Assembly: GCF_000337135.1 (NCBI RefSeq)
Contig: NZ_AOIN01000059.1
Span: 1 to 64,000 of the forward strand
Direction of reading: 5' to 3'
DNA: 64,000 bases
DNA from: Natrialba chahannaoensis JCM 10990
GTDB lineage: Archaea; Halobacteriota; Halobacteria; Halobacteriales; Natrialbaceae
In this document: one piece after another, positions 2,971-44,373 of the stretch
How the letters are laid out: the number at the start of each line of letters is the position of its first letter
Position numbering within the stretch: position 1 is the stretch's first letter
Made by a program: the position numbers and the translations under genes
Notes under the pieces: generated by a model
What the model saw: the letters and a program-made list of their open reading frames with translations, nothing else
Database searches by the model: none
Told to the model about the DNA's origin: nothing

Positions 2971-3178
2971 GTCGCTGAACTAATCGCTACGAACTGAGCT
3001 GACGGCGGACGTGGCACGCCGAGTCGTTCGTCACCGATGTGGGCGGATGATCGGCCTCGTGACTAGCCACTGATCGTCGTTCAAAAGAAGGGGCGAACAC
3101 CATCGGTATGCTATATTTTCACAGGAGGAGAACTGTCCAGAATAGCTAAGTACGAGCCAACCGATTGTTATGGTGTAT

Positions 3179-3295
3179 ATGTCACGCACGATTAAAGTCG
3201 TACTCGCCCTGGTCGTCATCGCCGTCCTCTGGAAGCTCCTCAGCACGAGCGGCACCGAGATCGACGACGAGATCGAGTACGACCCCGTCGAGTAA
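3179..3295 (+). CDS. Small single-pass membrane protein (38 residues)
   Basis: Encodes MSRTIKVVLALVVIAVLWKL followed by a short acidic tail ending EYDPVE. One hydrophobic helix (about residues 6-21) followed by an acidic outside or cytoplasmic tail is all that can be seen. A second ATG 9 bases upstream (3170) could add three residues. A TATA-like ATATTTT lies about 60 bases upstream. Codon use is typical of haloarchaeal genes (C/G third positions), which supports a real gene. Function unknown. Confidence 0.6.
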   Translation: MSRTIKVVLALVVIAVLWKLLSTSGTEIDDEIEYDPVE

Positions 3296-3442
3296 TCGGC
3301 AGACAGCGCACAGTCTTACCAGTAGTCAGTAGCACCCGACCCGTTCGAGTTCACGCACGGCTGCGGACCGGTCGCCCTGCCCTGATCCGGTCCACGGTCC
3401 CCGATCCGAACGGCTTACAGGCACGGCGTCGTACGCTGCAGT

Positions 3443-4273
3443 ATGTACGGCGTCGTCACTCGCAACGCTGAAGAGGTCCGATGGCCGGAGTTCGACCGCG
3501 GATTCTACGAAGTCAAGGACGTGACCGGCCGGTCCGCCGACCCGATCGAGGACGGGGTGAACATGGTCTCCTGTTTCGGCGACAACGCGGCCGCAGACGC
3601 CGACCCGTCGCTCGTCCCCGTCGACGACATGGGTCGCCCCGCAACCCGCGACCGGAAGTACTTCGACTGGGCCTACATCTGCCCATCACGACAGGACTAC
3701 CGTGAGGGCCTCCTGGAAATTATCGACGACTGCGTCGCGGCCAACGAGGACGTTCGACTCGACGACGTTGGCTTCCCTCGCGAGGGGTACTGTCGCTGTG
3801 GCGTCTGCGAACAGGCCTTCGAGGCCAGCGAGTTCGACGACCGCCAGGCCTGGCGTGCCGACGTCATCACTGAGTTCGTCGCTGAAGCCGCAGCGCGCAT
3901 CCCCGGCCGTGTCTACCTGACGCTCTACCCCGATCCGTACCCTGGCCACCTCTATGAACGCGCCGGGCTAGATCTTGCGGCACTCGAGGAACACGTCGAC
4001 GAGTTCGTCATCCCGCTGTACGATATGGCCTACGAGACGACCTACTGGCTCGAGACGATCGCGAAGGGATTCCAGAGTGCACTCGAGACGCCCTTCAGTA
4101 TCGAACTGTACGCGATCGATATCGAGATTGAAAATCTAATTCACGCACTCGAGGTGGCAGAGCACTACGCTGAGGGTGTGTTCTTCGGGTACGAGGCGTC
4201 GAACGCGCGGGCGGCATTGCGTCGGCGGCGTGCCGACGATCGAGATGGTGTTACGCACGGCGAGCCGACGTAG
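3443..4273 (+). CDS. Conserved haloarchaeal protein, putative TIM-barrel glycosidase-like
   Basis: A 276-residue soluble protein. Segments such as YFDWAYICPSRQDYREGLLE, VRLDDVGFPREGYCRC and GRVYLTLYPDPYPGHLY alternate strand and helix in the way of TIM-barrel glycoside-hydrolase-like proteins; the Asp-Asp after VRL and the Asp in YPDPYP are candidate active-site residues. The CRCGVCEQAF segment could hold a metal. No signal peptide is seen. The substrate cannot be read from sequence, and the assignment to a hydrolase fold is an inference from pattern only. It stands alone between the small membrane gene and a convergent PRC-like gene. Confidence 0.55.
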   Translation: MYGVVTRNAEEVRWPEFDRGFYEVKDVTGRSADPIEDGVNMVSCFGDNAAADADPSLVPVDDMGRPATRDRKYFDWAYICPSRQDYREGLLEIIDDCVAANEDVRLDDVGFPREGYCRCGVCEQAFEASEFDDRQAWRADVITEFVAEAAARIPGRVYLTLYPDPYPGHLYERAGLDLAALEEHVDEFVIPLYDMAYETTYWLETIAKGFQSALETPFSIELYAIDIEIENLIHALEVAEHYAEGVFFGYEASNARAALRRRRADDRDGVTHGEPT

Positions 4274-4393
4274 GGTTCGGCTGTTTTGGAGTAGTAGTAA
4301 AGCTTCTCGAGGTCGTGTAACCAACTCGCAATCCAACAAAGCCACAGCGTGCTGTGGGGTGAAGGTAACAGCAACAGCGAGAACGACAGCGAT

Positions 4394-4927
4394 CTACCGT
4401 GTGTCGTCGCCAACAAGGTCGTCGTCATCGTCGTCGTCCAACAAGCTGTCATCATCATCGTCGTCCATGAGGTCGCTGTCGTCGTCGCCAATCAGGTCAT
4501 CATCGTCATCGTCGATGATGCCGTCATCGTCTGATCGGCTGCGGTGGTCGTCGTCCATGATGCCATCGTCGTCAGTTCGATCGCCTCGACCGGTATCTGT
4601 GTCCGTCATTCCGCCCGTTTCTGTCTCTCGTCCTGTACTGGTTTCGGTACCAGCACCAGTACTGGTCCCTGTCCCTGTACCAGTCCCCGACAGATCGCTC
4701 TGAAGGTGGATCTCGTCGTCCGTAATAGTCGAAACCGCCGTCTCCTGCAACGGGTACGCGTCGTCAGTCCCACCCCAGCCGAGTTTGGCTTTGATCGTAT
4801 CCGCGATACCTGGGTTCGGTTCGACGTGTGCCGTTCCGTGTTCGACATCGGCGACGATACCGACGTCGTCACCCTCCGCGTTCACGACCGTCTTCCCGAC
4901 ATCGTCGTCTGTAAATTGTGGAGACAT
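4394..4927 (-). CDS. PRC-barrel-like protein with poly-Asp C-terminal tail
   Basis: A 177-residue protein. The first 80 residues (MSPQFTDDDVGKTVVNAEGD, then VGIVADVEHGTAHVEP) resemble a small beta-barrel of PRC type common in haloarchaea. The next part is a Gly/Thr repeat (GTGTGTGTSTGAGTETSTG), and the last 60 residues are almost only Asp with Leu/Ser/Ile, encoded by GTC/GTCATC-type microsatellite DNA. The start at 4927 is chosen because the barrel begins there; an upstream ATG would add an unlikely basic leader. The disordered tail probably varies in length between strains. Function unknown. Confidence 0.65.
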   Translation of the reverse strand: MSPQFTDDDVGKTVVNAEGDDVGIVADVEHGTAHVEPNPGIADTIKAKLGWGGTDDAYPLQETAVSTITDDEIHLQSDLSGTGTGTGTSTGAGTETSTGRETETGGMTDTDTGRGDRTDDDGIMDDDHRSRSDDDGIIDDDDDDLIGDDDSDLMDDDDDDSLLDDDDDDDLVGDDTR

Positions 4928-5087
4928 TGCACCAACAGGTATGCCAAACACGACCAAGATGGTGGTGCTTGCGCTGGCTTGCGAGTTCGCCGTCAACGCG
5001 TGTCTCGGCTGTTCTCGGCGTTGCCATCCATTCCGACGAGACAAACAGCACCTACGAGAGAGCCCTCACAAAAATACGGTTTCACGA

Positions 5088-5155
5088 CACAGTACAGTAC
5101 AATACAGTACAGGGCAGTACAGTACAGGGCAGTACAGTACAGTACAAGACGAGAC
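5088..5155. repeat. CAGTA-type tandem repeat
   Basis: The pentamer CAGTA is repeated about ten times, with a higher-order unit of 15 bases in which two CAGTA units are followed by CAGGG. The tract sits between the start of the PRC-like gene (4927, minus strand) and the stop of the enoyl-CoA hydratase gene (5222), so it lies in the upstream region of the former. Low-complexity tracts outside genes are rare in this window. Confidence 0.9.
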
Positions 5156-5221
5156 AGGCACTGCGACACGAGACGAGCACTGCAACATACTGAGACACGG
5201 CAGAAAACTGTTGGACGCCAG

Positions 5222-5989
5222 CTACTCGTTGAACTCCGGCTCCCGGCCTTCGAGGAACGCAGCAACTCCCTCTTCATGAGAGTCAGTGGAACGAGCGTGG
5301 ACCTGCAACAGGTTCTCGTAATCCAGTGCTTCATCCCACTGCCGACCCATGTTCTCGTGCATCGCCTGCTTCATCATGCCGATCACGTCCGTCGGGCGGC
5401 GTCCGAGTCGCTCGACCGTCTCGGTCACCCGCTCGTCGAGGTCGGCAGCCGGAACCGACTCGTTGATCAGATCGAGGTCCGCTGCCCGCTCTGCATCGAA
5501 AAACTCGCCAGTAAACGCGAGCTTCTTCGCAGCACGGAGGCCGATTAGCTGCGGGAGCATGAACGTCCCACCAGTGTCTGGAATAAGGCCAACGCGAACG
5601 AACGCACAGGAAAAGGTCGCATCCTCGGCCGCATATGCGATGTCCGAAAGCGCGACAATGGCGAGTCCCGCCCCTACCGCGTCACCGTTCACTTTCGCCA
5701 CGATTGGCACGGGACACTCGAGCATCGCCTCGACGACACGGCCAAACGTCTCGGTGACCTCCTCGTAGGCCTGCCGTGGCGGATCAGGTTCGGCCGCCAT
5801 CGCCTCGATGTCACCACCAGCGCTGAACGCGTCACCCTCGCCAGTGATGACGATCGCGTGATACTCTTCGGGATCGGCATCGCCGATCGTATCTGCGAGG
5901 TCCGACGCGGTCTCGCGGGTGATCGCGTTGAGCACACCGGGGCGGTCGAACGTGAGTCGCAGGACGCCGTCGTCGCTGTCGATCTCCAT
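5222..5989 (-). CDS. Enoyl-CoA hydratase/isomerase family protein (PaaG-like)
   Basis: Crotonase-fold enzyme of 255 residues acting on acyl-CoA thioesters. The oxyanion-hole segments are FSAGGDIEAM (about residues 56-65) and GDAVGAGLAIVALSDIAYA (about 103-121), followed by VGLIPDTGGTFMLP. The usual first catalytic Glu of true hydratases is absent before VGLIPD and an Asp is present, as in PaaG-type isomerases, so an isomerase-like role is as likely as hydration. No beta-oxidation partner gene is adjacent. Start ATG 5989 fits the family length. Confidence 0.85.
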   Translation of the reverse strand: MEIDSDDGVLRLTFDRPGVLNAITRETASDLADTIGDADPEEYHAIVITGEGDAFSAGGDIEAMAAEPDPPRQAYEEVTETFGRVVEAMLECPVPIVAKVNGDAVGAGLAIVALSDIAYAAEDATFSCAFVRVGLIPDTGGTFMLPQLIGLRAAKKLAFTGEFFDAERAADLDLINESVPAADLDERVTETVERLGRRPTDVIGMMKQAMHENMGRQWDEALDYENLLQVHARSTDSHEEGVAAFLEGREPEFNE

Positions 5990-6218
5990 AGCGGAGAGAC
6001 AAAGAGCTCACTATTAATGGTGCTGTTCCGCGAAGCACTGACGCAGGGATGTGTCGGAGTTGGTATCGTCGTCAGTGTCGGTAGCGATTCCGGGTCGGTG
6101 CCGGTAGCTGGGGATACGAGCTACTCGAGTACGAGTCCCGGCAGAAGAGAGTCCGGTACCAGATCGCAACTGGCACTGTCAGCTGCAACGCAGCTCGCAG
6201 GTGGCGATCTCTTGTGTG

Positions 6219-6887
6219 CTAGTCAGATGGCATCGGCGCAGTCACTGCCTCGTCTTCGGCGACGTTGAGCTCGGAGGTGACGAGCGCGCGATAGGCACGA
6301 CGCAGGCGCTCGGACAGCGCCTGGTGTGAGATATCGAGCTCCTCAGACAGCTCCTGCATCGAGACCTCGCGCGGGATTTCGAAGTAGCCGTGATCGATTG
6401 CAGCGACCAGTGTTTCGTACTGTCGGCTTGTCAGGCCACACTGGGAGTGACTCTCCGATTCGAGATCGTAGAGGCGAACGATCGTCGGCGAGACGTCGTT
6501 GTCGACGAGTCGGTCGTACAGTGAGCTGACGTGCTCGCGCTCGAGGACACGAACACTTAGTAGCCAGATGCCGTTCGACGCGGAGGCGCTGAGTACGGTT
6601 CCATCCTCGTCGATGACGGTTTCGAAGACGTCGACCGTGTCCGGGTCGAACTCGATGTCGTACAGCCAGCGGCCGTCATCGCTGTTGATCAGCGAGTATG
6701 CATCGACCGCCGACGAAGCCGCGAGCGCATCGTCGATCATCTCGTTGGACGGTCCCGACAGCCAGAGGCTGTGCCCGTTCGAGGCGATAACACGCTCCAT
6801 CTCGCACGTGAGCGTGGGGACGGCCTCGAAGAGTTCGCCCAGTCCGGTACCCTCGGCCGAGAATTCGATGTCTGCGATCGATGTCAT
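6219..6887 (-). CDS. HTH-10 (bacterio-opsin activator type) transcription regulator
   Basis: A 222-residue DNA-binding protein. The N-terminal 150 residues form the variable sensor-like part common to Bat-type regulators. The C-terminal helix-turn-helix starts at LTSRQYETLVAAIDHGYFE and continues with the motif SMQELSEELDISHQALSERL and RRAYRALV. This is the standard haloarchaeal HTH_10 signature. The gene is divergent from the secreted beta-helix gene at 7257 and could control it, but that is inference from position alone. Confidence 0.88.
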   Translation of the reverse strand: MTSIADIEFSAEGTGLGELFEAVPTLTCEMERVIASNGHSLWLSGPSNEMIDDALAASSAVDAYSLINSDDGRWLYDIEFDPDTVDVFETVIDEDGTVLSASASNGIWLLSVRVLEREHVSSLYDRLVDNDVSPTIVRLYDLESESHSQCGLTSRQYETLVAAIDHGYFEIPREVSMQELSEELDISHQALSERLRRAYRALVTSELNVAEDEAVTAPMPSD

Positions 6888-7256
6888 GGGTTCGATTCAC
6901 TTGTTAAACAGGGACCGCATTAACCGCATTTCCAAAGAGATTAGCAACGACAATAGCGAAAGTCTCCAGGGATGATATATAAACGTGAGTTACTGTTAGT
7001 TGGTCCGAGAGTAGCGTGATAAACGGTGTACTGGGGCGGAACGAGACTGTTTCGAGCGAACAATGGTTATGCAACAGACAGACGAACGGACAGTCAGACC
7101 GTTCTATCTGTCGCAAGTACATTACAGTGGCCGCCGTCGGACCGCAAGCAGGCGTCGGTTCGACTCCTCCATCACAGATACCAACACACTGTGATAGGTC
7201 GGGAGAGTGGCTTACGTCGCATATACGTAAACCCACGGACCCGCCGAACGGAGACT
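6888..7256. promoter_or_regulatory. Divergent intergenic region with TATA boxes and an inverted repeat
   Basis: No gene is seen here. GATATATAAAC at 6974-6984 is a TATA-like element. A perfect 7-base inverted repeat, ATCACAG with an 11-base spacer and CTGTGAT, lies at 7171-7195. CATATAC near 7220 lies about 31 bases before the GTG at 7257, the spacing of a leaderless haloarchaeal promoter. Confidence 0.55.
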
Positions 7257-8771
7257 GTGACGTCAAAGGATACGCACGGACGGAAGTGGAGTCGACGCCA
7301 GTATCTCACCGGAACGGTCGCTGGGGTGGCCGGGGTTGGTGGAATCCTCTCAGTGAGTGGAGCGGGGGCGGCGGCAGACGACGATCCCACAGCGCAGTAC
7401 GAGACGGTCGTCGATATCGTCGATGCCGGCGCAGATCCAACTGGGGGCGAACCGATTACGCCCGTTCTCCGGGACCACGTTGGCGATAACACGCTCATCG
7501 AATTTCCGGAAGGGCGGTACTACATGGACGAACAGCTCCGATTCACCGGGTTCGAGAACGTCGGGTTTGTGGGTGACAGTGCGACACTCGCCCCGGCAGA
7601 CTACCACGGGTTCGACGGTCCACAGTATCGTCTGTTCCGACTTGGAACAAGCGATAGACCCGGTCGTGACCTCCGATTCGAAGGCTTCGATATCGATCAA
7701 AGTGCGTCGAAAACGGGGATTCGTGTCATCAACGCCGAAGTCGAGGACGGACTTCTCGTCCGAAACGTGACGGTACACGGAGTGCACGACAGCGGGACCT
7801 GGGGGCCAGGCTTGTTCAACGTCACCGATCCGGAGGGCAACGGTCTCGTCGACTGTTTCCACGCACCAGATGGTGCCGTCCACGTCGACGAGACGCCGAA
7901 CGCGGGTAACATGTGGCGCGGCGCGACCGGGTTTGGAATCAATCAGCACCATCGTGGCACGCTCGTCTTCGAGAACTGTATCCTCGGGGGGTTCCCGGAC
8001 AACGGCCTGTACGCCTCGAACGAAACTGGGCAGATCGGCGTCGACGGCGGGCACTACCAAAATAGTGGAACTGCCTCGATCCGCCTTAGCGGAACGGCCG
8101 GTGCGATCAGGAACACGACGATCACTGTCGACGACGATCCCCACGACTCGGCGGGTCAGCACGCGATTCGGCTCGACCGCGGCGAAGAGTTCACCATTGA
8201 GGGTGTCGATATCGACGTTCCCGAACCGAACGGCGACGCGATCAGGGTCATGAACCCCGTCGACGAGACGATCATCTCGAACACCGAGATCAGTATCGGT
8301 GCGCGGCCGAACAACGGTATCCGACTCGATCCCGAGACGGGGGCGGCAGTCATCGACGATGTCACCGTCGATATCGACGGCAGCGCGAACGCCCTGCGTC
8401 TTCTCGGCAGCGACGGTGGTGCGGTCGAGGTCTCCGACCTTCGAGTGACAGGTGATGCACCCGGCTCGACGCTGCGACACGCAATCTTCTGTGAACGGCA
8501 CTCCTGTGAGTTCACCGGCCTCGATGTCGAACAGCACGGAACAACCCGCCGTCGCGGAATCGAACTGCGCGGCGCTGACTATCGGCTTGCCGACAGCGAG
8601 TTCGAAACGACGGATACGCCGATCGTCCTCAACGGTGCGAGTGACGTTACCGTCGAAAACTGCTACGCAAACCCGACATCGGACGCGTATTCGCTTCGGA
8701 TCACGAGCGATTCTGGTGCTGTCCAGTTGTCGACCAACGACTTCCCTGCGGGTGTTCGAGACGACCGGTAA
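7257..8771 (+). CDS. Tat-exported right-handed beta-helix (pectate-lyase-like) protein
   Basis: A 504-residue secreted protein. The start is GTG at 7257, giving a Tat signal KWSRRQYLTGTVAGVAG ending near SGAGAAADDD with no lipobox Cys, so it is probably released. The mature part opens with YETVVDIVDAGADPTGGEPI, the classic beginning of pectate-lyase-like superhelices, and continues as short repeated strands such as VENCILGGFPDNGLYAS and LRLLGSDGGAVEVSDLRVTG. Such folds bind or cleave polysaccharides; the catalytic residues cannot be assigned. An upstream in-frame extension to 7026 has no signal-like character and was not used. Confidence 0.75.
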   Translation: MTSKDTHGRKWSRRQYLTGTVAGVAGVGGILSVSGAGAAADDDPTAQYETVVDIVDAGADPTGGEPITPVLRDHVGDNTLIEFPEGRYYMDEQLRFTGFENVGFVGDSATLAPADYHGFDGPQYRLFRLGTSDRPGRDLRFEGFDIDQSASKTGIRVINAEVEDGLLVRNVTVHGVHDSGTWGPGLFNVTDPEGNGLVDCFHAPDGAVHVDETPNAGNMWRGATGFGINQHHRGTLVFENCILGGFPDNGLYASNETGQIGVDGGHYQNSGTASIRLSGTAGAIRNTTITVDDDPHDSAGQHAIRLDRGEEFTIEGVDIDVPEPNGDAIRVMNPVDETIISNTEISIGARPNNGIRLDPETGAAVIDDVTVDIDGSANALRLLGSDGGAVEVSDLRVTGDAPGSTLRHAIFCERHSCEFTGLDVEQHGTTRRRGIELRGADYRLADSEFETTDTPIVLNGASDVTVENCYANPTSDAYSLRITSDSGAVQLSTNDFPAGVRDDR

Positions 8772-8885
8772 GTCACCGAACCGGCTTTTTGAGTGTAATC
8801 CCCCAAATATAATTGTGTAGTCTCCCCTATAATACACAGCGACCGCACCAGTCACTCAGCAACCAGACGCCACGGAGGTGCTAAA

Positions 8886-9011
8886 CTATAGTACCAACTG
8901 CAACTAGTTACACACTGATCGCACGTCCGCGGTTCTCACTCGTTCTACTCGCTCCGAACCGCGCTGCCGTCGTGCGATCAGGTGCGCAGTGACTTGCAGT
9001 GGCTACTATAG
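8886..9011. mobile_element. 126-bp MITE-like palindromic element
   Basis: The two ends are inverted copies: CTATAGTA...CACTGCAA-like arms of about 40 bases, both reaching the identical decamer TGATCGCACG, and a second inner match GCGGTTC. The whole stretch can fold into one long hairpin with a loop near 8945. It has no coding capacity. Such short, nearly full-length palindromes with terminal repeats are typical of non-autonomous transposable elements. No clear target-site duplication was found. Confidence 0.7.
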
Positions 9012-9187
9012 ACAGTGCCCAATCAGAGATGATGTAGTGAATTTGGTAGTCAAGACTGGATACAAGCACAGATAGATCATAACATATTATTGGCACAAAT
9101 GACCTCTACGAACAGTCATAAATGGAAATAAAACACAGCAAAAATACGGTGCTCCTTTCGAGAGTGGGTGGACGCTACGGCAAGGGC

Positions 9188-9211
9188 GCGGGCCAGGCGC
9201 GATTTGAACAC
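9188..9211 (-). repeat. Duplicated 3' end of tRNA-Lys (att-like)
   Basis: Bases 9188-9211 match the T-arm and acceptor 3' strand of the tRNA-Lys gene (9304-9327) in 23 of 24 positions and in the same orientation, 116 bases away. A copy of a tRNA 3' end next to the tRNA is the usual footprint of tyrosine-recombinase integration. No integrase is present nearby, so this would be a scar. Confidence 0.65.
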
Positions 9212-9304
9212 ACGGTCGGATGTGCTCGCTTCGCTGCGCACAACCTCCCTGCGTTCAAATCGCTCTAGCCGCTTTGCTCCTCACGTATTTGTTCGTCGCA
9301 AAAG

Positions 9305-9378
9305 CGGGCCGGGCGCGATTTGAACACGCGACCGTCTGATTAAGAGTCAGACGCTCTGCCGGACTGAGCTACCGGCCC
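9305..9378 (-). tRNA. tRNA-Lys (anticodon CTT)
   Basis: The minus strand folds as a full cloverleaf: acceptor GGGCCGG paired with CCGGCCC, D-arm TAGCTCAGTCCGGCAGAGC, anticodon arm TCTGA-CTCTTAA-TCAGA giving anticodon CTT, and T-arm GCGTG-TTCAAAT-CGCGC with one G-U pair. The discriminator is G at 9305 and CCA is not encoded. No intron is seen. A short T run follows the 3' end and may end transcription. Confidence 0.97.
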
Positions 9379-9546
9379 TTCACTTCTGACTTTTCGTCGA
9401 CTGGTAAAATACGTTTCCCTTGAGTTGCGTTGTGACAGAGAGCGCCACGCTTGCACTCAATCGAGACATCACAATTGAAAGAGACACTCCCGCAACGTCA
9501 CAATCTTCGGGAATGTTAAGTGCGGTCGGTCCGACCACACGTTCAC

Positions 9547-10995
9547 ATGAGCACGGGGGTTACGATTTCGTCGATCTCTAACTACGCTATCTTGGGTTGT
9601 GGCAGCGTCGGCTACGCCGTCACCGAAGAACTCGTCGAACAGGGCAAGGACGTACTGATCGTCGACCGGGACGAAAACCGCGTTGAATCGCTCCGAGACC
9701 AGGACTTAGACGCGCGCAGCGCCGACATCCGCGAAGCCGAGGTCGCCGACCTCGTCGCCGACCGCGACGTCGTCCTTATCCTCGCCTCCGACGTCGAATC
9801 GAACAAACAGGCCGTCGAACACATCCGCGCCGATAACGACAACCAGTTCGTCGTTGCCCGTGCGAGCGACCCCGTCTCCGGCGACGAACTCTCCACCCTC
9901 GGCGCAGACATCGTCATCAACCCCTCCTCCGTCATCGCCGAATCCGCACTCCGCGCACTCGAGTCCGGTGAACTCGAGTACAACGCTGGCAAACTCGCCC
10001 AGTTGGTCGAGGAGACGGGAACGCGGCTGGCGATCATCACGCAGGATAGCCCCGATCCGGACTCGATCGCGAGCGCGGCGGCGTTGCAGGCGATTGCGGA
10101 TCACCTCGGCGTCGAGTCGGATATCATCTATCTGGGCGATGTGGGTCACCAGGAGAATCGGGCGTTCGTCAACCTGCTTGGGATCGACCTCGTGCAGTGG
10201 GACGAGATCGAGGATCAGTCGGTCTATGATAGCGTCGCGTTGGTCGATCGTGAGACATCAGCCGAACTTGATCTCTCGGTGGACGCGGTGATCGATCATC
10301 GCGAGGCGGATCAGGAGTTCGAACCCGAGTTCGTCGACATCCGGCCGAACATGTCCTCGACGTCGACGATCATGACGAAGTACATTCAGGAGTTCGACAT
10401 GAACGTCTCCGAGGAGGTTGCCACTGCCTTGCTCTACGGTATCCGTGCGGAGACGCTGGATTTCAAACGCGACACTACCCCCGCCGATCTCACTGCCGCA
10501 GCCTATCTCTACCCGTTTGCGAACCACGACACCTTAGAACAGGTCGAGTCGCCGTCGATGTCGCCCGAGACGCTCGACGTGCTCGCGGAGGCGATCGCCA
10601 ACCGCGACGTACAGGGGAGTCATCTCGTCTCGAACGCGGGCTTCGTCCGGGACCGCGAGGCGCTCACCCAGGCAGCGAGTCACCTCTTGAATCTGGAGGG
10701 CGTCACGACAACGGCCGTCTTTGGTATCGCGGACGAGACGATTTTCCTCGCAGGCCGCTCGAAGGACATCCGCATCAACATCGGGAAGGTGTTGGCCGAC
10801 GCCTACGGCGAGATGGGTGAGACAGCGGGTCACTCGACACAGGCCAGCGCGGAGATTCCGCTCGGCATCTTCACCGGGATCGAAATCTCGGAGGACACAC
10901 GGGATACGCTGCTCGATCTGACCGAAGAAGCGGTCAAGCGAACGCTGTTCGACGCGATGGGTGTCGACGGAGCAGAAGGATCGAACGGCAGTTAG
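9547..10995 (+). CDS. RCK/TrkA-N NAD-binding domain fused to DHH-DHHA1 phosphoesterase
   Basis: A 482-residue cytoplasmic fusion. Residues 1-120 form a Rossmann RCK domain (YAILGCGSVGYAVTEELV, then VLIVDRDENRVESL). Residues 150-330 carry a DHH-type phosphoesterase with SPDPDSIASAAALQAIAD and VIDHREADQEF. The C-terminus is DHHA1-like (GRSKDIRINIGKVLADAYGE, GHSTQASAEIPLG). In DHH proteins the metal-binding Asp/His residues act on small phosphodiesters such as cyclic dinucleotides or short RNA. The start ATG at 9547 gives a normal RCK N-terminus; an upstream ATG at 9520 only adds a short leader. Second-messenger turnover linked to NAD or ion state is inference. Confidence 0.85.
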   Translation: MSTGVTISSISNYAILGCGSVGYAVTEELVEQGKDVLIVDRDENRVESLRDQDLDARSADIREAEVADLVADRDVVLILASDVESNKQAVEHIRADNDNQFVVARASDPVSGDELSTLGADIVINPSSVIAESALRALESGELEYNAGKLAQLVEETGTRLAIITQDSPDPDSIASAAALQAIADHLGVESDIIYLGDVGHQENRAFVNLLGIDLVQWDEIEDQSVYDSVALVDRETSAELDLSVDAVIDHREADQEFEPEFVDIRPNMSSTSTIMTKYIQEFDMNVSEEVATALLYGIRAETLDFKRDTTPADLTAAAYLYPFANHDTLEQVESPSMSPETLDVLAEAIANRDVQGSHLVSNAGFVRDREALTQAASHLLNLEGVTTTAVFGIADETIFLAGRSKDIRINIGKVLADAYGEMGETAGHSTQASAEIPLGIFTGIEISEDTRDTLLDLTEEAVKRTLFDAMGVDGAEGSNGS

Positions 10996-11016
10996 GGTTA
11001 CCGTTCAGGTTAGCGT

Positions 11017-11310
11017 TCAGGCAACCAGTTCAGTCTCTTCTTCGTCCGGATCGCGAACGCGCTCGACGACGTCGTTGATCAGGATCACGTCACCGACCGC
11101 GCGCACCCAGCGGTAGGGGACGATAACGCCCTGGCCAGTCGCGGACTCTTCTGCGAACAGTTCGGTGTTCAGGTTGCCGAGTGCAAGCCCGGTGACGGCC
11201 TGGCCATCAACGTTCAGTTGGAGGTCCTGGACTTCGCCGACGAAAACGCCGCTGTTCGAGTAGACCTCGCGTCCGACGAGAGAGGTGATCTCCTGGGGAG
11301 TGTCGTCCAT
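11017..11310 (-). CDS. PRC-barrel domain protein
   Basis: A 97-residue protein made of one PRC-barrel: TSLVGREVYSNSGVFVGEVQ, then LQLNVDGQAVTGLALGNLN, and VIVPYRWVRAVGDVILIND. PRC barrels bind RNA or proteins in ribosome maturation and other settings. The start at 11310 (MDDTPQEI) is favoured; an ATG 12 bases upstream would add MCPD. It is convergent with the RCK-DHH gene. The specific partner is unknown. Confidence 0.8.
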   Translation of the reverse strand: MDDTPQEITSLVGREVYSNSGVFVGEVQDLQLNVDGQAVTGLALGNLNTELFAEESATGQGVIVPYRWVRAVGDVILINDVVERVRDPDEEETELVA

Positions 11311-11521
11311 GTCTGGGCACATGCGCGGCTAACTCTTAATTGTTGGTCAGACACGACAGTCGCGAGAGCCGACCGGACACTGATCCGACTGCACAACACG
11401 CAGACGTCTGTTCGGGTATGACAGCCCAAAAATTCACGGCTCGTGGCACACGCCTGCCACTCGTCTGACTCAGCGGGGAGATGATTGTGCTGCTGGCCGT
11501 TCGATGTGTGTCGGGGCCTCG

Positions 11522-12460
11522 TCACTCCGTTGGTGCCGAGAGCCGCTGTGCAGTCTCCGCGATTGACGCGATCCGGGTACGCGCCCACTCACACGCCGCC
11601 TGATCGTCCCCGACGAGTAGCCCACAGGGCTCGTCATCAGCACCACAGACGAGGAGAATCGTCAGCGCTGTCGCCTCCGTCTCGACTGTCTCCTCGGCGA
11701 GCTCAACACAGACGAGGCCGTACGGCGGCGGCTGCGTCGTCTCGCGCAGAACGAGCTGGCCAGCCGAAAGCGCACTCGCCGTTCCATCCCCGAACGCACC
11801 GAGTAGCGACTGGATCGCATCGTCAGGGGCGATCACCGTCACCTCTATCCCCGACTTCGGCTCCCGCTTCGTTTCCCCCGACTCCGCATCACCGAGTGCT
11901 CCACAGTAAGCGCTTGCCAGACAGTGAGTCGCCCCTGGGACCACGACCTGATGGGTCTTCCCCAGCCGAAGCAGGACACTGAGCGTGGCCTCAAGCGTGT
12001 TCGCTTCTGCGTTCGTCCGCTCGGTGCCGACCCCGCCGTCACACTCGGGCAACTCGAGTACCCCGCCGATCGAAAGGGAGTCTGCAACCTGTGCGGGCGG
12101 TGTCGATGGTGTCACCGCCGTGGCTCCGTCGATGATCTGCCAGCTCAGGTCGGCCGACGGCGGTAGTTCGGCGAGCAACTCGCTTCGGCGGGTCACCTGC
12201 GTGAGGCGGTCAGAAAGCTGTTCGAACGACGAGAGCGCGAGGTCGCCGGCGACCGTCAACCGGTACTGGCACTGTCCGTCGACGGTCGTTCGTTCGATCA
12301 GTTCGGCACGCTGGAGCTCCGAGATACCCCTGTCGATCGTCGAGCGAGACAACTCGAGTTCGGCCGTGAGGGTGCATGGGCGAGTCGGTCCCGCGGCGAG
12401 TCGGCGCAGCAGGGACTCGCGACGACGAACAATAGTGAGCAGCTCGGTCTCTCGCACCAT
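11522..12460 (-). CDS. Winged-helix transcriptional regulator, haloarchaeal two-domain type
   Basis: A 312-residue protein. The N-terminal 75 residues form a winged helix: ETELLTIVRRRESLLRRLAA, the recognition region ELSRSTIDRGISELQRAELI, and a wing DGQCQYRLTVAGD. The C-terminal domain contains an unknown fold with strands such as IEVTVIAPDDAIQSLLGAFG and GLVCVELAEETVE, of the kind that senses small ligands in haloarchaeal regulators. The start ATG at 12460 places the helix-turn-helix at the usual distance; further upstream in-frame ATGs code a low-quality leader. Target genes are not evident from the neighbours. Confidence 0.8.
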   Translation of the reverse strand: MVRETELLTIVRRRESLLRRLAAGPTRPCTLTAELELSRSTIDRGISELQRAELIERTTVDGQCQYRLTVAGDLALSSFEQLSDRLTQVTRRSELLAELPPSADLSWQIIDGATAVTPSTPPAQVADSLSIGGVLELPECDGGVGTERTNAEANTLEATLSVLLRLGKTHQVVVPGATHCLASAYCGALGDAESGETKREPKSGIEVTVIAPDDAIQSLLGAFGDGTASALSAGQLVLRETTQPPPYGLVCVELAEETVETEATALTILLVCGADDEPCGLLVGDDQAACEWARTRIASIAETAQRLSAPTE

Positions 12461-41094: not shown

Positions 41095-44000
41095 TTAGCG
41101 TGTGAGCGCCACTGCCATGCTGACCAGCACGAGACCGAGCACCGCAATCACTGCGCCGATCGTTCCCGCGCCGGCCACAGAGAGGCCGACGGTGGCACCC
41201 GCAACGATGCCGGCACCGCCACCGCCGGCGAGTAGCGGGCCAAGAAGAGTTTCCAGCGAGCGACCCGTTTCTTCGTCTTGCTCGTCAGCCTCAGTCGTCT
41301 CGTCGGCTACGTTCAACTCCTCAGCCACGTTGGCCACCTCGTCTACCTCGCGCTGCAGTTCCGACTGCAGCGACTCCAACTCGTCCGCCGTCACCAGCGG
41401 CTCCAGTTCCTCCTGGGTTACCCCACCCTGCTCGTCCTCAAGTTCCCCGACCCGCTCCGTCAACTGTTCGTAGTCGGACTCGAGTGCGGTCTGCTCAGTC
41501 GCGACGGATTCAACCTGCTCGCCGATACCGTCGAGGCGCTTGGTGAGGTTCGCGACCGCCTCGGACTCTTCGAGGTCGTCGAGTTGTTCCGAAAGCGAGT
41601 CGACTTGCGCAGCCAGCGAGGAGACGGTTTCATCGTCTGGCACGTCTTCGTGGTCCGGCACCTCTTCGAGGGCGTCCGAAAGGGACTCGAGTTCGGTGCC
41701 GAGCCTGTCCACCGTAGCCGAGACGCTCGCTGTGTCGTCGGCCAACGTCTCGATCGCTGCTGCCTGTTCGTCGACAGTCACACCCTGCTCGTCGATCGTC
41801 GACTCCTGTGCAGAGAGGCGCGTCTCGAGTTCGTCCGTGGTGTCGTCGACTGCGGTGACCTCGGATTCGACGTGTGTGAGCGCGTCCTCGAGTTCGGCCA
41901 CGTCGCTACTCGCCGTCTCAGCGGTTTCCTCGACATCCGCAGTGTGGCTCTCGACGGCGGCAACGTCGGCGGCGACGGCATCTAGCCGGTCGCCAGCGTC
42001 ACCGATCCGGTTGTCGAGCGCGTCGATGCTGGCACGCAGGTCGTCGCGTTCGTTCTCGAGTGCCGCCTCGGTTTCGTCGATACGCTCCTCGAAGGTCGTT
42101 TCCACTTCATCGAGCCGATTCTCGACCGCTGTCTCCGTCTCGTCGAGCCGACCCTCAAGTGTCGTTTCTGTCTCGTCGAGTTGCTCCTCGAGTGATGTCT
42201 CTGTTTCGTCGAGGCGGTTCTCAAGTGACGTTTCCGTTGACTCGAGCTGCGTTTCGAACGACGATTCCGCCGACTCAATTCTCGAATCGAAGTCCGACGC
42301 CGTGTCGTCGAGACGGCTCTCGAGTGCATCGACTTCCGCAGCCTGCGTCGACACTGCTGTCTCTGCCTCGTCGAGTCGCGACGCGAGTGTCTCCTCGGTT
42401 GCATCGAGTGCGTCCTCGATCGAGTCGACTGTCTCGGCCGTCTCCACAGCGTGTGCGTCGAGGTCCGCTTCCACGTCCGCGACGGCTGACTCGGTCGATT
42501 CGACGCGTTCTCTAACCGACTCGAGTTCGTCGTCGATCGTCTCGTCCACGACATCGACACGGGACTCGAGTGCGTCCAGTTCGGCCGTCGTCGCGGACTC
42601 GTCTGCAAGGTCGGTGACGGTGTCCTCGAGTCCCGCCAATGTCTCGCGGTCGGCCTCCAGTTCGGTCACCATCTCGTCGAGGTCGGATGCGAACTCCTCG
42701 AGCGTCGTCCGGAGATCTGAAACCTCGTCGTCGACCTCGTCGAATCGGGCGGTCGTGTGTGTCGAGTGTTCCTCGAGTTGGCCCGCAAGTCCGTCGAGTC
42801 GAGTGGCTTGCGTCTCGAGTTGGGGTTCGAGTTCGTCGACCCGTGCGTCGATCTCCGCAACAGTGGTAATCGTGTCCGAGCGGTCCGAAACGGTCTCCGA
42901 AAGCTCGTCGAGCGTGGCTTCAGCCTGTTCGAGTTTCTGCTCCATCCGCGCGAGGTCGTCCGTCCGGGCTGTTTCCTCGCGGACTGTGTCGAGAGTGGAC
43001 TCGAGTGCGTCGAGGTCGTCGGCGAGCGCCTGGATCTCCTCGTCGCGGTTGGCGAGGCGGTCGAACAGGTGATCAATAGCGTCGTTCGCGCGGTCATCTG
43101 TGGCTGGCTGTGCCTGTGCGTCGAGGTCGGCGGCGATGGCTGCGGCACTGTCACCGCCATCGTTGCCACTTGGACTGTTGGCGTCACCGTTCGCTGGCTC
43201 CGATGCCGCCGCCGAACCACCGTCGAGATTTCCGTCGAACGAGAGCGTGTCCGCCTCCTCGCTGCTCGTTCCTGATGCAGTCTCGTCCCAGACGATCTCC
43301 TCGTAGGCATCGACATCGTCTTCGGCAGCAGCGAGTGCACCTCTCGCGGCGCTCGCCTCGGGTTCTGCCGCACGTCGGACGCCCCGAATCGAGATCGGGA
43401 GCCCCGCCGAATCGAACCGTCCGCCGAGGAGGTACTCGAGTCCCTCGATCGCGCCGGGGCCGGCGACTGCGATTGGGACAGCGACGCCGCGCTGAAGGTC
43501 CGCAGCTGCGGCCTGCTCGCCGAGAGCAGCGGCCAACTCGGCGATGAGGTCGTCGTACGCTGCGGCGAGGGCGCGTTCGATCGGTCCCGTTGCGGCGTCA
43601 GGATCGAGTTCAAAGTCTGTGAGAACGCTGCGGACCTGTGTGCGCTCGTGGCCAGTCTCGCCCGCCGCCTGGGCAACGATCCAGTCGGTGCCGCGAGCAA
43701 TGGAGAACGCGAGAACCGGGACGCCGTAGTAGGCGAGTGCGACGCTCGTCGTCTGTGCTCCGAGGCAGATGCCGACACCGGTGTAGTTGTCGCCGGCGAA
43801 CTGATCGTAGACGACAGCAAATCCCTGGCTAACTGGTGTTGGGGACTGCGAGTTGTCATCCTCGGTTTTCCCGGCAGCCGTCAACTCGTCGAGCACCGAC
43901 GCGACCGTCTCGCGGTGGGTGCCAGTTGGCGCGTCGGCGTCGACGACTGTACCTGGCGTCGTGTAGGAGAGCGCCACCGGCGAGACGTCGTCAAGGAGGA

Positions 44001-44373
44001 CGAGGTCGACGAGTGCCGAAAGCACTGCCTCCTCGTATTCTGCGGCGGCGAAGACGCCCTGCTGAAACGGGGTGCCGTGCTCGGCGACAGTCGCGTCGCC
44101 ACTGACTTCAGCTGCGATTTCTGCTGCCTCCGGCCCAACGAGCAGTGTCTCGTCGTCAGTCTCGACGAGCGCCACCGCATCGGTGTCGGCTGCAGCGATC
44201 GCGTCCTCGAGTGCATCGTTCGTTACACACGTTTCGTTTTCAGAGTCTGTCTCCGTCTCCCCCGCTATCGACACCGACACAACCCGCGTCGGCGTCGAAC
44301 GAAGCGCGACCTCCCCCGAGCCGTCGCTCGCGAGCCGAATCGCCTCCGCCCCAATATCGAGACCGTATGCCAT
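41095..44373 (-). CDS. Membrane-anchored actin/Hsp70-fold protein with a very long coiled coil
   Basis: A 1092-residue protein with three parts. Residues 1-352 form an Hsp70/MreB-like ATPase domain: phosphate-1 motif YGLDIGAEAIRLA, phosphate-2 region GVGICLGAQTTSVALAYYG, and the adenosine-site region VPIAVAGPGAIEGLEYLLGG followed by AAEPEASAARGALAAAE, like the Hsp70 ending. Residues 353-430 are a disordered linker. Residues about 445-1020 are a near-continuous coiled coil with repeats of about 12-14 residues such as ETSLENRLDETETSLEEQLD. The last 45 residues are Gly/Ala-rich and hold two membrane helices ending SMAVALTR. In the phosphate-2 motif the usual Asp is Cys, so ATP hydrolysis may be lost. 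No close named family is recognised. Confidence 0.75.
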   Translation of the reverse strand: MAYGLDIGAEAIRLASDGSGEVALRSTPTRVVSVSIAGETETDSENETCVTNDALEDAIAAADTDAVALVETDDETLLVGPEAAEIAAEVSGDATVAEHGTPFQQGVFAAAEYEEAVLSALVDLVLLDDVSPVALSYTTPGTVVDADAPTGTHRETVASVLDELTAAGKTEDDNSQSPTPVSQGFAVVYDQFAGDNYTGVGICLGAQTTSVALAYYGVPVLAFSIARGTDWIVAQAAGETGHERTQVRSVLTDFELDPDAATGPIERALAAAYDDLIAELAAALGEQAAAADLQRGVAVPIAVAGPGAIEGLEYLLGGRFDSAGLPISIRGVRRAAEPEASAARGALAAAEDDVDAYEEIVWDETASGTSSEEADTLSFDGNLDGGSAAASEPANGDANSPSGNDGGDSAAAIAADLDAQAQPATDDRANDAIDHLFDRLANRDEEIQALADDLDALESTLDTVREETARTDDLARMEQKLEQAEATLDELSETVSDRSDTITTVAEIDARVDELEPQLETQATRLDGLAGQLEEHSTHTTARFDEVDDEVSDLRTTLEEFASDLDEMVTELEADRETLAGLEDTVTDLADESATTAELDALESRVDVVDETIDDELESVRERVESTESAVADVEADLDAHAVETAETVDSIEDALDATEETLASRLDEAETAVSTQAAEVDALESRLDDTASDFDSRIESAESSFETQLESTETSLENRLDETETSLEEQLDETETTLEGRLDETETAVENRLDEVETTFEERIDETEAALENERDDLRASIDALDNRIGDAGDRLDAVAADVAAVESHTADVEETAETASSDVAELEDALTHVESEVTAVDDTTDELETRLSAQESTIDEQGVTVDEQAAAIETLADDTASVSATVDRLGTELESLSDALEEVPDHEDVPDDETVSSLAAQVDSLSEQLDDLEESEAVANLTKRLDGIGEQVESVATEQTALESDYEQLTERVGELEDEQGGVTQEELEPLVTADELESLQSELQREVDEVANVAEELNVADETTEADEQDEETGRSLETLLGPLLAGGGGAGIVAGATVGLSVAGAGTIGAVIAVLGLVLVSMAVALTR

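Follow-up and report, generated by a model that had tools for sequence, protein, structure and literature searches.

A putative membrane-tethered volactin paralogue of haloarchaea with a worn nucleotide pocket

The window analysed here, a stretch of 64,000 nucleotides from Natrialba chahannaoensis JCM 10990 (contig NZ_AOIN01000059.1), carries on its minus strand, at 41095–44373, a single uninterrupted open reading frame that runs from ATG to stop and encodes a protein of 1092 amino acids. The parts of this protein follow one another in the order actin/Hsp70-fold head, acidic linker, short helix, coiled coil and membrane hairpin. Because the same architecture recurs across dozens of genomes, 41095–44373 is a real gene; contigs related to the window come from Natrialba hulunbeirensis, with 83% identity over the best segment, and from Natrarchaeobius chitinivorans, with 45%. 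Judged by its sequence, the gene encodes a paralogue of volactin, the haloarchaeal actin; the paralogue is anchored in the membrane and its nucleotide pocket is worn. We refer to it and its counterparts as long forms, as distinct from ordinary volactin. The features of the locus are as follows.

41095..44373, minus strand: complete open reading frame of the long volactin paralogue, 1092 amino acids (open reading frame, PF25216 match, recurrence in relatives)
43324..44373, minus strand: volactin (actin-fold) head, residues 1–350 (PF25216, E 8.5e-93; hhalign to ordinary volactin)
44329..44373, minus strand: phosphate-1 loop, MAYGLDIGAEAIRLA, with Ala where ordinary volactin has Thr9 (alignment column counts)
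43738..43782, minus strand: phosphate-2 region, TGVGICLGAQTTSVA (TGLGISFGAGMTNVC in ordinary volactin), with Cys203 aligned to Ser172 (alignment)
43429..43479, minus strand: adenosine motif, VPIAVAGPGAIEGLEYL, with one residue fewer than the ordinary VPVVVTGGTSSPxGFEAL (alignment)
43099..43317, minus strand: acidic linker, presumably flexible, residues 353–425 (composition)
43006..43101, minus strand: conserved head–coil junction helix, DDRANDAIDHLFDRLANRDEEIQALADDLDAL, residues 425–456 (alignment, motif search)
41284..43083, minus strand: coiled coil, residues about 431–1030 (heptad power z=31; weak SMC/Rad50/Apolipoprotein coil matches)
42019..42348, minus strand: ten consecutive hendecad (11-residue) repeats, RLDETETSLEE-like, residues 676–785 (repeat inspection)
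41098..41256, minus strand: C-terminal Gly/Ala-rich membrane hairpin, LLAGGGGAGIVAGATVGLSVAGAGTIGAVIAVLGLVLVSMAVALTR, reaching the C-terminus (hydrophobicity, motif search)

A head followed by a long coil and C-terminal membrane helices is what the original prediction had described, and this layout is borne out by the PF25216 match, the periodicity of the coil and the hydrophobicity of the tail. Volactin itself was reported in 2024 as an actin homologue of Haloferax volcanii that forms dynamic filaments and supports the change from rod to disk (PMC10869688). Residues 1–350 of the long protein match the Pfam Volactin model (PF25216) from end to end (model positions 1–321 of 321) with an E-value of 8.5e-93 and 311.8 bits, where the curated gathering cut-off is 35 bits; other long forms score 218–360 bits against the same model, and a profile of the long heads aligns to a profile of ordinary volactins by hhalign with 100% probability (E 2.3e-57). 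Given the PF25216 match, the hhalign result and the presence of an ordinary volactin in the same genome, we assign the head to the volactin family rather than to an unplaced Hsp70-like protein. Calling the head 'Hsp70-like', as had been done at first, was thus too loose, the closest named relative being an actin. Family-profile searches gave no match between Hsp70 models and the 1092-residue protein, and a Hsp70/DnaK identity was rejected, hhalign against archaeal DnaK being collinear but of 1% probability and built on narrow alignments. Searches of solved structures with the long protein by phmmer and by profile returned nothing meaningful. Ordinary volactin matches the MamK model at E 1.2e-10, which is below the curated cut-off, and the Actin model at E 0.0015.

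The structure prediction of the head that had been proposed gave a poor model, yet one whose best matches are mostly actin-fold. Two AlphaFold runs, made with an alignment of three sequences (the window's, L001 and L002), reached mean pLDDT values of 46 and 38, and the models were rejected as a basis for residue-level claims. When the better model was compared with the PDB using Foldseek, the top chains were mostly actin-fold ones (FtsA, PilM, MreB, EutJ and ParM), the best E-value being 2.9e-3 and none falling below 1e-3. Together with the published assignment of volactin, these weak model matches tend to support an actin fold for the head in outline, at less than residue-level detail. The most diverged part of the head is region 16–113, which is 8–23% identical to ordinary volactin as against 29–47% elsewhere; by analogy this region is expected to be subdomain IB, and its divergence would fit the loss of one filament contact.

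The nucleotide pocket sets long forms apart from ordinary volactins: the 1092-residue protein reads GLDIGAEA, GICLGAQTTS and AGPGAIEG where ordinary volactins have, invariantly, GLDVGTMN, GISFGAGMTN and TGGTSSPxG. The cysteine at phosphate 2, in place of the expected Asp, had been singled out as the key oddity. We rejected this: the position is Ser (Ser172) in all 32 ordinary volactins, which means that the volactin family in general lacks the Asp, and the cysteine is not the anomaly. The wear lies at other positions, each intact in 32 of 32 ordinary volactins: T9 is kept in 14 of 39 long forms, G174 in 20 and G176 in only 3, and GGT275-277 has suffered a one-residue deletion in all 39. The phosphate-1 Asp6 is retained in 38 of the 39, and long forms from outside the family are worn at overlapping positions. 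Mean pairwise identity among genera is 48% for the long heads versus 97% for ordinary volactins, a figure somewhat inflated because the ordinary set (n=32) was drawn from the best-scoring matches. From the worn pocket residues and the low identity among the heads we infer that long-form heads cycle ATP poorly; the residual motifs could still bind it.

Beyond the head and its linker, the junction helix (AIDQLFDRLANRDEEI) occurs in most long forms of the family clade, and a search of the family genomes with its motif found the long gene as the sole strong match and no other clear carrier. One weak match (E 9.6e-4) lies in a 636-residue frame at G243:C1:817211-817264; the long form of that genome is a divergent one. 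The coil that follows is 33% Asp/Glu with four prolines, and its hydrophobic periodicity at 3.5 residues exceeds that of 20 composition shuffles by 31 standard deviations, which argues that the periodicity is not due to chance. It extends over about 600 residues (about 431–1039), close to the 580 estimated earlier. Matches of the coil to SMC, Rad50, apolipoprotein and SpiroCoCo models were rejected as low-complexity coil similarity. Part of the hendecad run is encoded by a 33-bp DNA tandem repeat (window positions 42110–42228), a likely route by which coil length changes. Of the two C-terminal helices that had been predicted, which together make up the hairpin, one is strong (19-residue hydrophobicity mean of 2.77 from residue 1072) and the other, Gly/Ala-rich, is weak (1.59 from residue 1054); the hydrophobic stretch stops one to two residues short of the C-terminus. 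A search of the family genomes for the tail motif AGGGGAGxVAGG found no clear carrier besides the long gene. No signal peptide was seen and the hairpin sits at the tail end, so head and coil should be cytoplasmic. The claim that no family of this kind has been described does not stand, since the head is that of a volactin (PF25216; PMC10869688). The full arrangement of head, long coil and membrane hairpin is undescribed in the main texts of the freely readable journal papers found. The volactin family is already known; the long membrane-tethered architecture appears to be the new part.

Of the 121 Natrialbaceae genomes sampled, 86 carry a long form, 34 carry ordinary volactin only and one carries neither. 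The long forms in this sample score 169–720 bits, and their frames are mostly of 650–1560 residues, shorter only in fragmented assemblies. All 86 long-form genomes have at least two volactin matches each, and the second matches, among those listed, are ordinary genes of 340–410 residues. A further 80 genomes, nearly all from outside the family and chosen partly for an existing volactin match, so that absence of the long form elsewhere is not established, yielded divergent long forms in five (families f7 and f10; frames of 780–909 residues), all five of which carry ordinary volactin too. The long forms measure between 575 and 1295 residues in all. In the 39 aligned family members and the five outer ones the head spans 283–362 residues (283–289 in the three shortened heads, L085, L096 and L103) and the middle part 213–933, with coiled-coil periodicity of 3.4–3.6 residues, and a hydrophobic segment lies near the C-terminus. 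A quick, unrooted tree, not a careful search, separates family long forms (support 100), the five outer long forms (81) and ordinary volactins (99); the family's long forms thus fall outside the VolA group in a clade of their own, and the long form may have arisen only once. Viral contigs held no relatives of the long form, and plasmids gave only weak partial matches, of which the one inspected is a hypothetical protein of 345 residues and not a long form. Volactin-like frames annotated as hypothetical are found on Natrinema thermotolerans plasmid CP031304.1 (L222) and on Haloarcula plasmids NC_006395.1, NZ_CP039137.1 and NZ_CP073369.1.

The ordinary volactin (VolA) of the same genome, 340 residues long, lies 80 kb from the long gene, at C59:124330-125292 (L101:6271-7293), and is not in an operon with it. 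Across many genera the two genes usually share a chromosome at a distance of 50–200 kb (median 144 kb, 54 pairs), a spacing that, the genomes being related, may be inherited gene order. The long gene is flanked by MOSC, PEPCK, cupin and MFS genes in an order partly common to several genera and broken in others. As these are unrelated housekeeping genes that stand separately in other genomes, we rejected them as a functional operon, and they suggest no shared task. In one genome (L140; G364 C54:55000-70000) ordinary volactin is split into residues 1–98 and 95–319, 8.8 kb apart (at 3015–11868), by an insert with integrase-like and primase-like frames, as read from their translations, and apparently a mobile element has entered the actin gene. 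Partial or broken volactin copies occur in L141 (G060) and L142 (G106 C4) as well; that on G106 C4 lies in two frames and adds to intact copies at other places in the same genome. The volactin gene is reported to be probably essential in H. volcanii.

As our leading but tentative reading, we propose that the long form is a pseudo-actin, carried on a long tether that oligomerises, and that it anchors volactin filaments at the membrane or nucleates them there. The coil would oligomerise the heads and hold them as far as about 90 nm from the membrane, a length that assumes a continuous coil of 609 residues rising 0.15 nm per residue. The pseudo-actin heads, no longer cycling nucleotide well, would offer the end of an ordinary volactin filament a fixed template or cap; binding of the end would either nucleate the filament or tie its tip to the membrane. 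The wear of the pocket favours such a role, as do published observations in H. volcanii, where volactin filaments reportedly contact the membrane with their tips and the binding factors are said to be unknown (PMC10869688). An architecture that stays fixed while coil length varies freely is as expected of a tether. The earlier idea of a tethered protein related to the cytoskeleton stands. The interaction of the long head with volactin is nonetheless one that we infer from sequence. An ordinary volactin accompanies the long form in its own genome and in all long-form genomes sampled, which is weak evidence because it is near-universal in the family; H. volcanii anchors filament tips with no known long form; the long form, missing from about 30% of sampled family genomes, is not the universal anchor; and its gene shares no operon with volactin. 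The long paralogue is a direct candidate in Natrialbaceae for the factor that keeps volactin tips on the membrane.

The main rival, which we regard as doubtful but worth weighing, casts the long form as an FtsA-like adaptor, with an actin-fold docking head, with the coil and hairpin as its tether, and with a partner other than volactin, for example FtsZ/CetZ, the chromosome, the S-layer or the motility machinery. The weak structural matches are headed by FtsA and PilM, both of them actin-fold adaptors linked to the membrane, the head diverges freely among genera (48% identity), as adaptors do, and no operon links the long gene to volactin; yet the head is nearest to volactin and not to FtsA, and among the genomes sampled it occurs only where volactin does. 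Improbable, to our minds, is that the coil is the working part, akin to intermediate filaments or to SMC and arcadin-4, with the head a regulatory or dimer-capping relic: the coil is the largest part of the protein, has hendecad repeats and weak SMC/Rad50/Rkd4-like matches, and some heads (L085, L096 and L103) are shortened, but the coil is free to change in sequence and length, whereas head, junction helix and tail are retained. Less probable still are heads that polymerise into their own submembrane filaments as a cortex, with the coil as spacer or cross-linker, since the full actin-type head with its phosphate-1 Asp and the long oligomerising coil would suit this, but the worn pocket and fast divergence contrast with the 97% identity of filament-forming volactin, and a filament would be crowded if every subunit bore an acidic rod of 600 residues.

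Several known systems share parts of the proposed anchor. Sph (SMC-like), arcadin-4 (Rkd4) and Rad50 have long acidic coiled coils, some of them linked to archaeal cytoskeletons or cell shape, but their similarity to the long form is at the level of the coil, far below curated cut-offs, and the long form has no ABC ATPase head. FtsA, PilM and MreB attach to the membrane through short amphipathic segments or partners. They resemble the long form in placing an actin fold beside the membrane and are top structural matches of the weak model; they lack its coil of hundreds of residues and its C-terminal hairpin, and none gave a significant sequence match. Salactin of Halobacterium salinarum, a haloarchaeal actin-fold protein that forms dynamic filaments (PMC10746226), belongs to a separate family (PF25229), whose model matched none of the long heads tested and ordinary volactin weakly (E 0.07). 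Volactin (VolA, HVO_2015; PF25216) is 27–38% identical to the long paralogue and shares with its head the GLDxG phosphate-1 motif, the TGxG hairpin, YY.VP, G..W and the C-terminal EP..S.ARG; it is, however, a single domain of 340–370 residues that lacks coil and membrane segment, and its pocket is invariant where that of the long paralogue is worn. A broader parallel, which we offer as an unlikely but instructive one, is with the actin-related nucleators, of which the long form would be the archaeal counterpart: a catalytically degenerate, oligomerised actin paralogue on a long membrane tether that seeds or caps the ordinary actin filaments of the same cell. No membrane nucleator or anchor dedicated to an archaeal actin would, to our knowledge, have been described before it, and archaea would have built accessory factors from spare actin copies, as eukaryotes did with actin-related proteins.
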